64,000 nucleotides of DNA, taken from Alphaproteobacteria bacterium (GTDB lineage: Bacteria; Pseudomonadota; Alphaproteobacteria; RF32; CAG-239). Where the stretch lies: the NCBI GenBank assembly GCA_015062285.1, contig SUUY01000001.1, forward strand, positions 352,693-416,692, given 5' to 3'. Positions 12,095 to 16,509 of this stretch are shown piece by piece. Below the pieces are notes generated by a model. The model had not been told where the DNA came from. It was given only the letters and a program-made list of their open reading frames with translations, and made no database searches. The position numbers and the translations under genes were made by a program. Numbering within the stretch: the first letter of the stretch is position 1; every line of letters begins with the position of its first letter.

Positions 12095-12919
12095 ATGGCA
12101 AAAAAAGGTATAGTAGAACCAAGAAGAAATAAAGAAGGAAATTTTACAATAAAATCTCCTAATTCAGAAAAAAAGCCTGGTTCTTTCTATCGTCAAGATG
12201 AGACTATTTATTTTGATGGAACAGGGTACGATATTGTTGCTTCGCTAAAAGCTTGTATGGAAGTTGCAAAGAGTGAAATATATGATGTTGAATATGTTAC
12301 AGATATAGGAACGGTTATTATTACTCCGGATATGAAACCGATTGATGCTGTAAATGCGTATGCTATTTGTAAGTTTGTAAAAGATCAAAAAGAAGAAATT
12401 GAAATTAAGAAACCTGATTTTGAAAGACCTAAAGGAACAAGAAAAAGGCCTGAGGTTTTATCTTCTATAACGCCGGAACATGTTTTAGGTAAGGATAGTG
12501 GTGATTATTTGCGCGATATAAGTGTAAGAAATTTTTGTTATTATAACAGAATGGATCTTGATATATTGAAACTACATTACCGCATGGCTATCGGAGACGA
12601 GAATTGTGGTGTAAATTACAATAAGGAAAAAGCAAAACAGAAACTTAAAGAATATGGAATGGATTATGAGTTAAGATTTCATCCATATACATCAGTAATA
12701 CACAAAGGTCATGAGTTTGTTAGAATGGCAATGGATCCTAGCTTTGAGGCAAATAGAGCGAGGACCCAAAAAATAAGACGCCGAAATCAGAAACTGGCAA
12801 GAGAAAAACTAAAAAAAAGATTAAAAGAAGCTCTTAGTAAAGTAAAGAAACCCGAAAGCGGACCTAAAGGACCTCAAGCATCCAAAGGGATGATGTCAAA
12901 AAACGTAAGATCTAAATAA
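12095..12919 (+). CDS. Hypothetical 274-residue protein, outermost cargo of the tRNA-Thr array
   Basis: The SD is strong (AAGGGAGAAG) and a promoter lies just upstream. I do not recognise the product. Residues 1-100 hold a compact domain (ETIYFDGTGYDIVASLKACMEV-like alternation of strand and helix). A middle part contains PEHVLGKDSGDYLRDISVRN. From about 215 it is a very basic helix (ARTQKIRRRNQKLAREKLKK), ending in a disordered tail SKNVRSK. Repeat copy A starts 35 bases after the stop codon. It is probably a cytoplasmic or secreted accessory protein; nothing shows its function. Confidence 0.7.
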   Translation: MAKKGIVEPRRNKEGNFTIKSPNSEKKPGSFYRQDETIYFDGTGYDIVASLKACMEVAKSEIYDVEYVTDIGTVIITPDMKPIDAVNAYAICKFVKDQKEEIEIKKPDFERPKGTRKRPEVLSSITPEHVLGKDSGDYLRDISVRNFCYYNRMDLDILKLHYRMAIGDENCGVNYNKEKAKQKLKEYGMDYELRFHPYTSVIHKGHEFVRMAMDPSFEANRARTQKIRRRNQKLAREKLKKRLKEALSKVKKPESGPKGPQASKGMMSKNVRSK

Positions 12920-12954
12920 CTGATTTTATTTATCAAAGAGCTTGGTTTTACTCA

Positions 12955-13120
12955 AAAAGTCCGATAGTTTTAGCTGAATTGCCATTCTCGAGAATTTAAC
13001 AATCGGACTTTGCGGGATACAGTAATATCAACAAAAAAAGCACCTATTAAGGTGCTTTTTTTTAAATGGTGCGCGATACTTTACGATTATCGGAGTAATA
13101 ATTATGATGATTATGAGCAA
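12955..13120 (+). repeat. tRNA-Thr array repeat, copy A
   Basis: The unit has, in order: AAAGTCCGAT, a spacer with ATTCTCGAGAAT, AATCGGACTTTGCGGGATAC, AGTAATATCAAC, a terminator hairpin (AAAAAAAGCACC/GGTGCTTTTTTT, 13033-13062), TGGTGCGCGATACTTT, ATTATCGGAG and AATAATTATGATGATT. Read on the minus strand, the AGTCCGAT and CACCA pieces match the T-arm and 3' end of tRNA-Thr at 16435-16509. Confidence 0.9.
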
Positions 13121-13124
13121 CTAT

Positions 13125-13946
13125 CTATCTAACTAGACCTCTTTCACCGTTACCTATATTAATATTTTCGATAATCCTCTCGCTACTGCCATGTTTAGGA
13201 TACTTGAGAGCAGTGTTGTATACCAGATTTCTGGCCTTAGGAGTTAGACTTTGTAATGTAGAGGTATATATTGCTGACATCATAGATGTTTCAATAAGTT
13301 CTAATTTTGGTGTAATAACATCTTCAGGTGCATGCATTCTATCAATCATAAATTCCTTCAATTCCTCCACACATGAAGCGCTATATGGTGTAGAACGAAA
13401 TTTTTTAGGATTTTCACCATATTCTATTTCACTGGCAAAATAATGCCATGCTTTTGTTTGTAAGTCTTTTTCAATTTCAGGTAAAAGAGCCTTATTTTCC
13501 TGATTGCGAGATTGTTTTAAAACGTTGTATAAACGAAGCGTTTGAGGTAAGTCTATCTGTTCTCTTAACTCAGAATTACGACTAAACATCTCTTTACTCA
13601 CGGCGATACCAAGCATCTCAAGATGATCCCCAACAACAGATTGTTTTTGATCCTCACAAATTTCTTTCCAATCATTTAAAAGCTTCTCATCTGTTGCTGA
13701 TTTCAATTCATCACGTTGTTCTATAAAACTTAATTCAGTATCCACAATATTTGATTTTGCCGGAATAAGAACATATGTTCCATGAGAATTAGTTTCAGCC
13801 TTAACAGGTTTATCCTCGTGACAAGATAAAATGGCTATTTGCTCAATATTTTCTTCATAAGATATATTTTTCCATGGGCGTTCTATCGCTTGAGACAGTG
13901 ATAATTTGCTTTTAACTTCCTTTAAATGTTCTAAATGTTCACTCAT
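13125..13946 (-). CDS. Hypothetical 273-residue protein, cassette cargo
   Basis: The gene lies alone between repeat copies A and B, in the opposite direction to the other cargo genes. The SD is GGAGATAAG before ATG at 13946. The product is soluble and largely helical, with no signal peptide and no recognised domain. It starts MSEHLEHLKEVKSKLSLSQ, is rich in Glu, Lys and Ser, and has a segment TLRLYNVLKQSRNQENKALL. It ends in a Gly/Arg tail (GNGERGLVR). Its stop codon is only about 5 bases from the end of repeat copy A, so the cassette is tightly packed. Confidence 0.7.
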   Translation of the reverse strand: MSEHLEHLKEVKSKLSLSQAIERPWKNISYEENIEQIAILSCHEDKPVKAETNSHGTYVLIPAKSNIVDTELSFIEQRDELKSATDEKLLNDWKEICEDQKQSVVGDHLEMLGIAVSKEMFSRNSELREQIDLPQTLRLYNVLKQSRNQENKALLPEIEKDLQTKAWHYFASEIEYGENPKKFRSTPYSASCVEELKEFMIDRMHAPEDVITPKLELIETSMMSAIYTSTLQSLTPKARNLVYNTALKYPKHGSSERIIENINIGNGERGLVR

Positions 13947-14084
13947 TTCTTATCTCCGTATTTAATCTTTTAATCTACTATAAAACAAAATCGTTAAAAT
14001 ATAATTTAATATTACCATATATTTAAAATTTTGTCTAGTTTTTTGAAAAGATGAGAAATTTGTAGCACCTGTGTAGCGCCAAGG

Positions 14085-14250
14085 AAAAAGTCCGATTAAA
14101 AAGATGGGATTCAAATTTCAGAGATTTCTAAAATCGGACTTTGCGGGATACAGTAATATCAACAAAAAAAGCACCTTTTGAGGTGCTTTTTTGGAAATGG
14201 TGCGCGATACTTTGCGAATATCGGACTAATAATTATGATGATTTTAAGCA
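14085..14250 (+). repeat. tRNA-Thr array repeat, copy B
   Basis: It has the same module order as copy A: AAAGTCCGAT, ATCGGACTTTGCGGGATAC, AGTAATATCAAC, terminator (GCACC/GGTGC with long A and T flanks), TGGTGCGCGATACTTTGC, ATATCGGACT and AATAATTATGATGATT. The distance from copy A is about 1.13 kb. Confidence 0.9.
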
Positions 14251-14345
14251 ATTAAAAAATAAATACTACTCACTATTTACAAAAAAATAATATTTCACAC
14301 CTTACAATATCTTTATTGTTTTTAACGATATTGTCGAGGATTAGT

Positions 14346-15062
14346 ATGTTGAAGTATATGGAAAATATATATGAGATTAAACAAATACGAAAAAATGTAT
14401 GTTACATAAAAAATGATGTAATGTATGGCAAATGGGCATTCCCAACAGCTAAACCTGGTTGGACTGTTACATATGCTGATAAAGTAAATAAAAAAATATT
14501 AAAAGAAATTCTTATAGAAACTCAAAATTATAAAACCAATCTTTCAACCCCTCAAAGAAACTTACATGAAAAATATCCGGATAATCTTGATTTTATAAAA
14601 GAAGTTATTGTGTATGATTTGGAGAAGAAAACACCATTTGAAACTTCGGAAAAATTAACATTGAAAACTATTTCTACTAAAGAAGATTTAATGCATTGGA
14701 GCATAATTGCATCTAAAATATATAATGAATGTGACGCTGATTTCCTTTATGAATCATTTAAGATGGATATAGGTAAAAAACATGCAACATATTTTATTTT
14801 TTATAAAGGAAACAAGCCTGCTGGCATATCGCAAGTTATTCGAGGAGCTGGATATTCAGCTGTTTATTGGGTTGGTGTTTTAGATGAATATAGAAAACAA
14901 GGATATGGCACAGAATTGGTAAAACAATCCTTAAATTATGAAATTAATCATAAGCGAAACAAATTCATGCTGACAGCATCAGAATTGGGATTGATTATAT
15001 ATAAAAAATTAGGATTTAAACCTATGGATGTATATTATCAATATAGTATTAAAGGAAAATAG
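14346..15062 (+). CDS. GNAT family N-acetyltransferase, cassette cargo
   Basis: The 238-residue product has a C-terminal GNAT domain. The acetyl-CoA loop is VGVLDEYRKQGYGTELVKQS (R/Q-x-x-G-x-G type) near 180-200, followed by LGLIIYKKLGFKPMDVY, the usual last strand. The N-terminal 100 residues are unassigned. Such enzymes acetylate amines on small molecules or proteins; the substrate is not predictable. The ATG at 14346 is chosen for its SD (CGAGGA at 14335-14340). The upstream frame to 14316 has no SD. It is the only gene between repeat copies B and C and is very AT-rich. Confidence 0.8.
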   Translation: MLKYMENIYEIKQIRKNVCYIKNDVMYGKWAFPTAKPGWTVTYADKVNKKILKEILIETQNYKTNLSTPQRNLHEKYPDNLDFIKEVIVYDLEKKTPFETSEKLTLKTISTKEDLMHWSIIASKIYNECDADFLYESFKMDIGKKHATYFIFYKGNKPAGISQVIRGAGYSAVYWVGVLDEYRKQGYGTELVKQSLNYEINHKRNKFMLTASELGLIIYKKLGFKPMDVYYQYSIKGK

Positions 15063-15086
15063 TTTTTCAATTTACCAATTAGTATT

Positions 15087-15230
15087 CAAAAGTTCGATAA
15101 TTTATGAAAAATTGCTATTTTCGGGAAGAAAACAATCGGACTTTGTGAGATACAGTAATATCAACAAAAAAAGCACCTTTCGAGGTGCTTTTTTGGAAAT
15201 GGTGCGCGATACTTTGCAATTATCGGACTA
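15087..15230 (+). repeat. tRNA-Thr array repeat, copy C
   Basis: Modules: AAAGTTCGATAATT, AATCGGACTTTGTGAGATAC, AGTAATATCAAC, terminator GCACC/GGTGC, TGGTGCGCGATACTTTGC and AATTATCGGACT. The outer GTTCGATAATT/AATTATCGGAC ends are inverted copies of each other. It lies about 1.0 kb from copy B. Confidence 0.9.
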
Positions 15231-15345
15231 GTTTTTATAACGAATATAAAGAGTTAGCCATAAAATTAAGTTATTTAAAAACTTGAATTTTAAGCTATTA
15301 TCTGCTATCCTTTTTATATGGTTGCAATGCAACAATGAGGTAGAT

Positions 15346-16098
15346 ATGGTAAATGATAAAGAACAACTAAATGTAAAGCATTTGTTTGATATCGCCAATG
15401 GAATTAATAATCCAAGCCGTGAGGATGATGCTATTTTTTCTAGGACATATGAATATATAAAAGATATATCTGGGGGAAGTAGGTTGTGCTCTGAACTGAA
15501 TAAAGCATTTATTATCAGTTTGTATCCTGAGTTGGAAAGAGCCTGCGAAGAATATAGAATAAGAGCAAAAATTGTTGCAATGTCAAATTTGGATAATAAG
15601 TCCTTAGGTGAAAAATTAGATGAAGCAGGTAATATTGTAATAAATAAGTATAACCTATCTTATACAGTGAAAAAAAGCAATAAAGACGAGGTAAGAAAAA
15701 AAATTAACGTACAAAAGAAAATGAAAAAATATTTATTAGGCTTAATTGCAGATGATTGTTGCTCTGTAGTTTCTGAATTAGCTTCTAGATATGCACAAAA
15801 AGTAAATACTTATGATGAACTAGGAAATTTTATGCAGGGATTTGAGCGTGCTTCATGGGTTCTGACTGGGAAGATTGAAGAAAAAGTTGCATATTCTTTT
15901 TTAAAGCTTCCAGGAATTGGGCTGGGGCTTGATTTATTACAATTGAAAAAAGAAGGGATCATTACAGAAGAAAAGATTATTGATGAGCAAAAATTTAACC
16001 AGTCTGAAGCTGTTTGTAATGCAAAAATTAATGATAAAAGAGTTGATTTGTCCCCACAAAAAATGCCATCGAATCAAATTAGTCGAAGATATTCATAG
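15346..16098 (+). CDS. Hypothetical 250-residue protein, cassette cargo
   Basis: The start ATG at 15346 follows GAGG at 15337-15340; a longer frame from TTG at 15283 has no SD. The product starts MVNDKEQLNVKHLFDIANG, appears soluble and mostly helical, with basic stretches (KKSNKDEVRKKINVQKK). A central region LIADDCCSVVSELASRYAQK and a hydrophobic loop LPGIGLGLDLLQL follow. It ends in a short basic/hydroxyl tail QISRRYS. No family recognised. It is the single gene between repeat copies C and D. Confidence 0.7.
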   Translation: MVNDKEQLNVKHLFDIANGINNPSREDDAIFSRTYEYIKDISGGSRLCSELNKAFIISLYPELERACEEYRIRAKIVAMSNLDNKSLGEKLDEAGNIVINKYNLSYTVKKSNKDEVRKKINVQKKMKKYLLGLIADDCCSVVSELASRYAQKVNTYDELGNFMQGFERASWVLTGKIEEKVAYSFLKLPGIGLGLDLLQLKKEGIITEEKIIDEQKFNQSEAVCNAKINDKRVDLSPQKMPSNQISRRYS

Positions 16099-16110
16099 TA
16101 AAAATTTTGG

Positions 16111-16240
16111 AAAAGTCCGATAGTTTTGGCGGAATTGCCATTCTCAAGAATTTAACAATCGGACTTTGCAGGATACAGTAATATCAACAAAAAAAGCACC
16201 TAGAAAGGTGCTTTTTTACAAATGGTGCCGCTGGCAAGAA
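16111..16240 (+). repeat. tRNA-Thr array repeat, copy D (closest to the tRNA)
   Basis: It shares the modules of copies A-C up to the terminator (GCACC/GGTGC). After that it carries TGGTGCCGCTGGCAAGAAT, which is an exact copy of the tRNA-Thr acceptor/T-arm 3' end in the same orientation as the real gene. The stretch 16241-16400 up to the tRNA terminator has no gene and carries imperfect inverted segments. Confidence 0.9.
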
Positions 16241-16403
16241 TGGGCACTCCCACTCATTTTATTCGTGGGTCCTCCTCGTGTCGTAAGGCTCAAACTTCGT
16301 ACAAAACTGAGCTATTCGCTAAAGTTTTGCACTTGTTTTTGCCAACTATCCACTCCGGACGTTGCTTCGCAAGCCCGATCCTAGCCATTGGCAAATACCA
16401 TTA

Positions 16404-16432
16404 AAAAAAGCCTCCATAGAGGAGGCCTTTTT
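16404..16432 (-). terminator. tRNA-Thr terminator
   Basis: AAAAAGGCCTCC and GGAGGCTTTTTT (minus strand) form the stem immediately downstream of the tRNA CCA end. Confidence 0.8.
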
Positions 16433-16434
16433 AA

Positions 16435-16509
16435 TGGTGCCGCTGGCAAGAATCGGACTTGCGACCCCGTCATTACCAATGACGTGCTCTACCACTGAGC
16501 TACAGCGGC
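16435..16509 (-). tRNA. tRNA-Thr (GGT anticodon)
   Basis: Read on the minus strand: acceptor GCCGCTG/CAGCGGC, D-arm GCTC/GAGC, anticodon stem CGTCA/TGACG with loop TTGGTAA (anticodon GGT), T-arm GCAAG-TCCGATT-CTTGC, discriminator A and encoded CCA. The array of repeats and accessory genes at 12-16.4 kb lies directly downstream of its 3' end. Confidence 0.96.

Follow-up and report, generated by a model that had tools for sequence, protein, structure and literature searches.

The 64,000-nt stretch of alphaproteobacterial DNA analysed here (GCA_015062285.1, contig SUUY01000001.1, positions 352,693 to 416,692; the whole of it is called the window) carries a repeat in four copies to the left of a tRNA-Thr(GGT) gene. 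With a probability of roughly 0.8, these copies are the junctions of mostly single-gene cassettes, which a large serine recombinase likely inserted in succession at the tRNA-Thr CCA end. The recombinase is encoded by some relatives at the same site and is absent from the source genome of the window (G000, 1.42 Mb), where it would likely act in trans.

The repeat is 181 nt long and its copies A to D, which start at 12955, 14086, 15088 and 16111 (spacings of 1131, 1002 and 1023 nt), span 12955-16291. When aligned, each copy reads AGTCCGAT, 36 nt, ATCGGACT, a terminator-like hairpin (present in 4/4 copies) and the core TGGTGC, which is the reverse complement of the tRNA CCA end; copy C has AGTTCGAT in place of AGTCCGAT. 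On the 3' side of the core, copies A-C continue as GCGATACTTTnC...TATCGGA and copy D as a copy of the tRNA 3' end. Cassettes 1, 2 and 3 (13067-14197, 14198-15199 and 15200-16222) hold one open reading frame (ORF) of at least 100 aa each, and the orientation of the cargo in the window is mixed. A preliminary description of the locus had already noted one gene per unit and a terminator inside the repeat, and both observations hold: a single such ORF lies between successive cores (13125-13946, 14346-15062, 15346-16098), and the hairpin recurs in every copy. It had also placed a fourth cargo gene outside copy A; copy A is the right end of this gene's cassette (cassette 0), for which no left end was recognised and no left border found. 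An Rfam scan brings the tRNA alone to gathering score, and a promoter scan does no better than shuffles (24 vs a mean of 22.6). The features are listed below; the genus set referred to comprises 35 genomes, the source genome included.

12095..12919, + strand: cassette 0 cargo gene, 274 aa, no family above cut-off, present in 1/35 genus genomes
12958..13009, + strand: copy A right-end module AGTCCGAT-N36-ATCGGACT, exact
13033..13062, no strand: copy A terminator-like hairpin
13067..13121, + strand: copy A core TGGTGC (13067-13072) and cassette-1 left end, attP-type half site, ATCGGA 16 nt from core
13125..13946, - strand: cassette 1 cargo gene, 273 aa, no family above cut-off, 57% identical homologue in G008
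14089..14140, + strand: copy B right-end module AGTCCGAT-N36-ATCGGACT, exact
14165..14192, no strand: copy B terminator-like hairpin
14198..14252, + strand: copy B core TGGTGC (14198-14203) and cassette-2 left end
14346..15062, + strand: cassette 2 cargo gene, GNAT acetyltransferase
15091..15142, + strand: copy C right-end module, 36-nt spacer, 1 mismatch
15167..15194, no strand: copy C terminator-like hairpin
15200..15254, + strand: copy C core TGGTGC (15200-15205) and cassette-3 left end
15346..16098, + strand: cassette 3 cargo gene, 250 aa, no family above cut-off, 1/35 genus genomes
16114..16165, + strand: copy D right-end module, end of cassette 3, exact
16190..16217, no strand: copy D terminator-like hairpin
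16223..16434, + strand: gene-less 212-nt unit 'M', starts with a tRNA-Thr 3'-end copy; its hairpin 16410-16426 adjoins the tRNA
16435..16509, - strand: tRNA-Thr(GGT), the anchor; TGGTGC at 16435-16440, ATCGGACT 11 nt further, attB-type half site

The four copies recognised earlier are real and above chance. The pair AGTCCGAT-N36-ATCGGACT (up to one mismatch) occurs four times in the window and the left-end site (up to three mismatches) three times, all in the array, and neither appears in any of 100 shuffles. The preliminary description had proposed searching the rest of the source genome, and there the full repeat is found nowhere else and is not scattered; the one match outside this locus is a 29-nt stretch of the terminator (G000:C10:11662). 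Repeat matches are found in 30 of the 58 genomes searched (the source genome included), some of them terminator pieces only. This 29-nt match, and the wide occurrence of terminator-like pieces in relatives, would agree with a dispersed intergenic repeat (terminator and palindrome) lying near tRNA-Thr and expanded by duplication or homologous recombination, with no site-specific enzyme. Such an origin is extremely improbable given that the full repeat is confined to this locus in the source genome, that the cargo is unrelated between units, that breakpoints cluster at one 6-nt core, and that spacings of 16, 11 and 36 nt are kept while the intervening sequence varies.

The conserved left end begins sharply at ATGGTGC, with differing sequences before it, and right ends join at TGGTGC to a cassette left end or to the tRNA-Thr 3' end. 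Hence, a cassette extends from one TGGTGC to the next. Each repeat copy is composite, namely the right end of one cassette and the left end of the next; the composite repeat seen earlier is real, but it is not one unit. Likewise, the 'exact 3' end' ascribed to copy D is indeed a copy of the tRNA-Thr 3' end, but it is the start of the gene-less unit of 212 nt (16223-16434) between copy D and the tRNA. There are 18 such gene-less M units of 170-218 bp, which also occur at L072, L093, L160 and L174; they open with about 13-20 nt matching the tRNA-Thr 3' end, or with a variant of that stretch, and form a tandem pair in G005 and G017. A chimeric site at L081:5980, which joins the tRNA-Thr 3' end to the distal portion of a cassette's left end, looks as if it had arisen by later conversion or deletion.

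TGGTGC and ATCGGA lie 16 nt apart in 44/47 left ends of cassettes and 11 nt apart in 38/38 tRNA-Thr genes, counts that include near-identical genomes such as G014 and G015. In serine integrases, the zinc-domain motif lies 5 bp nearer to the centre in attB than in attP (PMC3783163), and the difference between 16 and 11 nt, measured on the right halves, equals this known offset. With the centre placed between TGGT and GC, ATCGGA ends at position 24 in the cassettes and at 19 in the tRNA. These positions coincide with the outer limits of the Listeria integrase's motif windows (16-24 and that range shifted by 5; PMC3783163), an absolute match that depends on where the centre is put; here it was picked from the symmetry of the 36-nt pair. 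The spacer of 36 nt is found in 39 of 41 right ends with a pair and in 38 of 43 distinct exact pairs. A further ATCGGACT lies 48 nt upstream of AGTCCGAT (mostly the AGTCCGAT of the 36-nt pair) at L164:13813, L160:9720, L081:6754 and L172:4438.

A left-end model of 56 positions, built from 34 sites, detects left ends in 26/35 genus genomes (a few by a weak partial match only) and, at E 1e-4 with stricter filters, in 9 of 385 genomes of the class: the source genome, G006, two of another genus of the family and five of two other families. With a pair spacer of 34-38 and a site spacing of 8-20 allowed in the search, eight loci from seven of these nine genomes gave nine inner pairs, all with a spacer of 36, nine left ends with a spacing of 16, and five tRNA ends with a spacing of 11. 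Three of these five are tRNA-Thr genes in two other families (L187, L188, L191). At L190:9856-9914, the array abuts a partial tRNA at a contig end that reads, by our own identification, as the 3' half of tRNA-Phe, and from this locus in another family the target may not always be tRNA-Thr.

The breakpoints of homology fall on the same junctions. When array segments from 50 loci were compared in pairs, 391 alignments reached 250 bp or more; they have 659 ends away from segment ends, 103 of which lie on a junction in both loci, although these ends are not independent and some reflect merely the conserved tRNA or M side. With the junctions shifted by -600, -450, -300, -200, 200, 300, 450 and 600 bp, the counts are 0, 0, 1, 8, 3, 4, 0 and 0. 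For example, a 1403-bp cassette of G004 is 95.4% identical to a cassette of G058 over 1397 bp; the homology ends 6 nt into the core in both, and G004 continues with a cassette, G058 with an M unit. The arrays also show polarity. In the nine tRNA-anchored arrays with at least two sites, the site nearest the tRNA scores higher (mean 54.9 vs 40.6 bits; within-array permutation p 0.003) and is best or joint best in 7/9. Together with the tRNA-proximal position of full-length recombinase genes, these scores fit an order in which the last cassette in lies next to the tRNA. The idea that repeated insertion at the 3' end of a tRNA gave rise to the array, put forward in the preliminary description, is strengthened by homology that ends at TGGTGC, cargo that changes between species and better-kept sites that tend to lie nearest the tRNA.

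The absence of a recombinase gene, also noted there, is true of the source genome's array, inside which there is neither a tyrosine nor a large serine recombinase, but not of its relatives. A full-length large serine recombinase occupies the tRNA-adjacent unit of G012, G024 and G030. A scan of GTDB species genomes revealed 18 loci with close relatives of it, all in uncultured bacteria, most titled Alphaproteobacteria and one from water-deer rectum. The mapped loci hold seven distinct full-length genes, all abutting tRNA-Thr; six copies with another unit after them are truncated, and truncated or split copies abut the tRNA too (e.g. CALXRP, L149). The elements with a visible left end (n=5) measure 8175-8918 bp. 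Three recombinase elements (L143:900-9620, L147:1100-9620, L148:600-9620) carry varied defence-type genes, between them restriction-modification systems (HaeII-like), an AbiLi-like ATPase and methyltransferase-like proteins. DUF3768 with a partner of 89-108 aa and a Rep-like protein (REP_ORF2-G2P, below cut-off) are recurrent in several elements.

The reading frame of the recombinase crosses the core into tRNA-Thr. The TGG of the core is the complement of CCA, and the W that it encodes shows conservation of 90% or more across 27 diverse relatives. In 39 protein sequences, drawn from 120 of 320 relatives found and with tails sorted by hand, the tail is the tRNA read backwards in 28 (WCR, WCRWQESDLRPRHYQ and similar) and the cassette left end in 11. 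Full-length proteins with the cassette-type tail imply that there are also full-length copies not adjacent to the tRNA, or circles. The C-termini of the distant relatives P0064, P0069, P0070 and P0110 (38-50% identity to P0003) look like other tRNAs read backwards, which suggests a wider family that may target CCA ends. The domains found in relatives are Resolvase, Recombinase and Zn-ribbon, and the predicted fold (mean pLDDT 73.5, pTM 0.39) matches serine integrases bound to att DNA, with an overall arrangement that is unreliable (rmsd 12.9). A sequence search of the PDB gave no match, NCBIfam matches are all below cut-off (best XisF), and in viral contigs neither a relative of the enzyme nor an exact copy of the site was found.

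The truncated genes bring in another explanation, in which the units are shrunken serine-recombinase islands of 8-9 kb, cis-mobilizable and stacked by accretion, and no cassette moves by itself. Units with truncated recombinase genes do exist (residues 273-513 in G012b, 292-514 in G025, 286-514 in CALXRP and 455-514 in G058), the 36-nt pair is common to the right end of cassettes and the 3' end of the recombinase gene (18/18 3' ends), and tandem accretion of such relics is documented in the available part of one source (PMC5704250). What makes this explanation unlikely is, first, the position of the pair, which in small cassettes is 56-58 nt away from the core, with a terminator after it, as opposed to 80 nt away in recombinase genes, so that the pair looks like a module of its own. 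Secondly, the whole 1.4-kb single-gene cassette of G004 and G058 recurs in two species with different right neighbours. Thirdly, exactly one ORF of at least 100 aa is present in 21 of the 46 units delimited (median 1106 bp), the others having none (3), two (11) or three to seven (11).

Movement of the units by the host's XerC/XerD or by a different tyrosine recombinase, in an IMEX- or tycheposon-like manner, is highly improbable. Tyrosine recombinase matches occur in 35/35 genus genomes, several array-bearing genomes show only two of them, and the start of the left end, GGTGCGC, presumably resembles one arm of E. coli dif. Against this, no tyrosine recombinase match (PF00589) lies inside an array in the genus set, and the serine recombinase gene lies exactly at the site and spans the core. 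To our knowledge, dif sites have nothing that corresponds to the 5-bp offset and the 36-nt pair (no dif search was run). The tyrosine recombinase next to a copy that the preliminary description had suggested looking for was found neither in the source genome nor in the genus set, and the term tycheposon-like falls with it.

In the reading favoured here, of cassettes moved by a large serine recombinase, a cassette would enter as a circle with an attP-type site, and the tRNA side would act as the attB half, with ATCGGA 11 nt from the core and not 16. Crossover would occur within TGGTGC and leave attL-type junctions behind, and each new cassette would settle beside the tRNA and push the older ones away. 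Displacement would cost the tRNA its terminator, and the end of the cassette would make good this loss: since each cassette brings its own terminator, the tRNA would keep one. The AGTCCGAT-36-ATCGGACT pair is probably an accessory site, predicted to bind a dimer of the same enzyme, and is a candidate for enabling repeated insertion, a role weakened by the pair not being universal. The orphan array of the source genome would move only with the enzyme supplied in trans.

Several points weigh against this mechanism. The recombination itself is something that we infer from sequence. The full-length recombinase gene is present at the array in just 3/35 genus genomes, and the source genome has no PF07508 match, which makes its array an orphan. 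The truncated recombinase genes of G012, G025, CALXRP and G058 suggest that some units are deletion relics. The site proximal to the tRNA in the source genome is not the best-scoring (51 vs 60 and 53). Inspection of the left (P) halves by eye reveals no clear zinc-domain motif at the distance where one would be looked for. The pair precedes 44 of the 101 junctions with enough flank (17 cassette, 17 tRNA, 10 M), and the remaining 57 have other ends, e.g. M-unit or empty-site terminators and degraded ends. The two 8-mers occur in the reverse order seven times, with a 48-nt spacer in 6/7, an arrangement that stems from the additional ATCGGACT that some pairs have on their upstream side; the right end may be less simple than a single pair implies, perhaps with three motif copies. 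In the recombinase gene, the degenerate codons under the 8-mers are invariant in 4/4 cases vs 5/15 elsewhere, a weak test of constraint at the DNA level (p 0.03). Serial insertion beside the tRNA would require a hybrid target, yet recombination between attP and hybrid sites depends on a helper in the case of the reference integrase (PMC3783163). Other elements are described as accreting into attR (PMC5704250).

With more doubt than confidence, we propose the existence of a 'serine integron' in Alphaproteobacteria. In it, tRNA-Thr (in another family, the partial tRNA reading as tRNA-Phe) would be the acquisition site, a large serine recombinase with a frame across its own attachment core would acquire genes singly and in trans, and insertion at the tRNA would recur without a separate helper protein by virtue of a second palindrome bound by the enzyme, 86-88 bp upstream of the core (110 bp in the enzyme's own element). 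If true, cassette stockpiling has arisen independently, with a serine recombinase on a tRNA end, and the swapping of restriction, nuclease and other accessory genes in these small genomes is explained. With their clear geometry (a 5-bp offset and a 36-nt pair), these naturally occurring att pairs make the directionality of serine integrases and repeated insertion testable.

Integrons are the standard example of single-gene stockpiling in movable cassettes, and need a tyrosine recombinase and folded DNA sites. Their arrays are rows of mostly one-gene cassettes inserted beside a fixed anchor, and orphan arrays without the enzyme exist. The best reading is that the present array works like an integron without being one: the earlier term integron-like suits its way of working and not its enzyme. 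In place of a tyrosine recombinase and attI there are a serine recombinase, a tRNA 3' end, mixed gene orientation and own terminators, and no IntI-type tyrosine recombinase lies beside an array in the 35 genomes, as no PF00589 match does within one.

The array is closest to tandem islands of serine recombinases such as the Dehalococcoides ssrA islands, which are the nearest published system found. According to the available part of their description, these islands are arranged in tandem downstream of a stable-RNA gene and bounded by short repeats of its 3' end (PMC3146451). The 3' end of the gene for their recombinase DsiB (540 residues) always overlaps att and runs into the neighbouring island or ssrA, and 15 islands without an integration module were suggested to be cis-mobilizable (PMC3146451). 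Tandem units at an RNA 3' end and a recombinase gene overlapping att are thus shared, by what that text covers; DsiB and the present recombinase are likened by description, not by sequence. As differences, the same text gives an ssrA target, a six-gene integration module and vcrABC islands of about 12 kb, in contrast to single-gene cassettes of about 1 kb, and the part available mentions no right-end motif pair with a terminator (PMC3146451). The DsiB/DsiA/ParB/Mom integration module is missing from the three recombinase elements, and their target is tRNA-Thr, not ssrA.

Similarly, the Enterococcus cassette chromosome and SCCmec use the large serine recombinases CcrAB and insert at the 3' region of a conserved gene (PMC6222049). 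Some of these elements have several attR sites and variable cargo, as here, but as far as the available text goes they differ by the rlmH target, two recombinases and large size (PMC6222049). The cassettes have att sites at both ends, no integration genes and integrase-bearing relatives at the same target, as cis-mobilizable elements (CIMEs) do. The CIMEs and tandem accretion treated in the available part of PMC5704250 are decayed integrative and conjugative or integrative and mobilizable elements, in contrast to the many single-gene units with a common end module. Tycheposons have tRNA-anchored cargo, a tyrosine recombinase and large cargo of 4-200 kb in what is available of their description (PMC10872708); the tRNA anchor is shared, and a tyrosine recombinase of their own is absent from the present arrays. 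What distinguishes the array from the published systems is that its units are single-gene in size, have a right-end module in common and target tRNA-Thr. Literature searches, which covered titles and abstract openings and few subscription papers, returned no recognised description of single-gene serine-recombinase cassette arrays at tRNA-Thr.

The cargo turns over between genomes. Related strains do not always carry the same four genes, as, of the 35 genus genomes, 1 has the cassette 0 gene, 2 have that of cassette 1, 4 that of cassette 2 and 1 that of cassette 3; for the GNAT of cassette 2, these are its own genome and three distant GNATs with 25-28% identity. The cassette 1 homologue (57%) of G008, the one close relative that any of the four genes has in other genomes of the genus set, lies in the unit directly before the M unit and tRNA, and two further cassettes separate cassette 1 from the M unit in the source genome. 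Three of the four cargo genes of the window have no Pfam match above cut-off, none of the four has a PADLOC match, and the GNAT has NCBIfam matches below cut-off only. Other arrays have cargo in common with one another, and among the genes that they carry are those for restriction-modification, HNH and NERD nucleases, a methyladenine glycosylase and HAD proteins, along with many without a family.

The source genome has four tyrosine recombinases, of which the two larger were examined; none is linked to the array. The gene of a 519-aa tyrosine integrase (L070:529-2670) is convergent with a Pin-like serine resolvase of the same genome. That of a 576-aa tyrosine integrase (L071:23-2040) directly follows an ORF resembling tRNA sequence in translation and is perhaps another tRNA-linked element.

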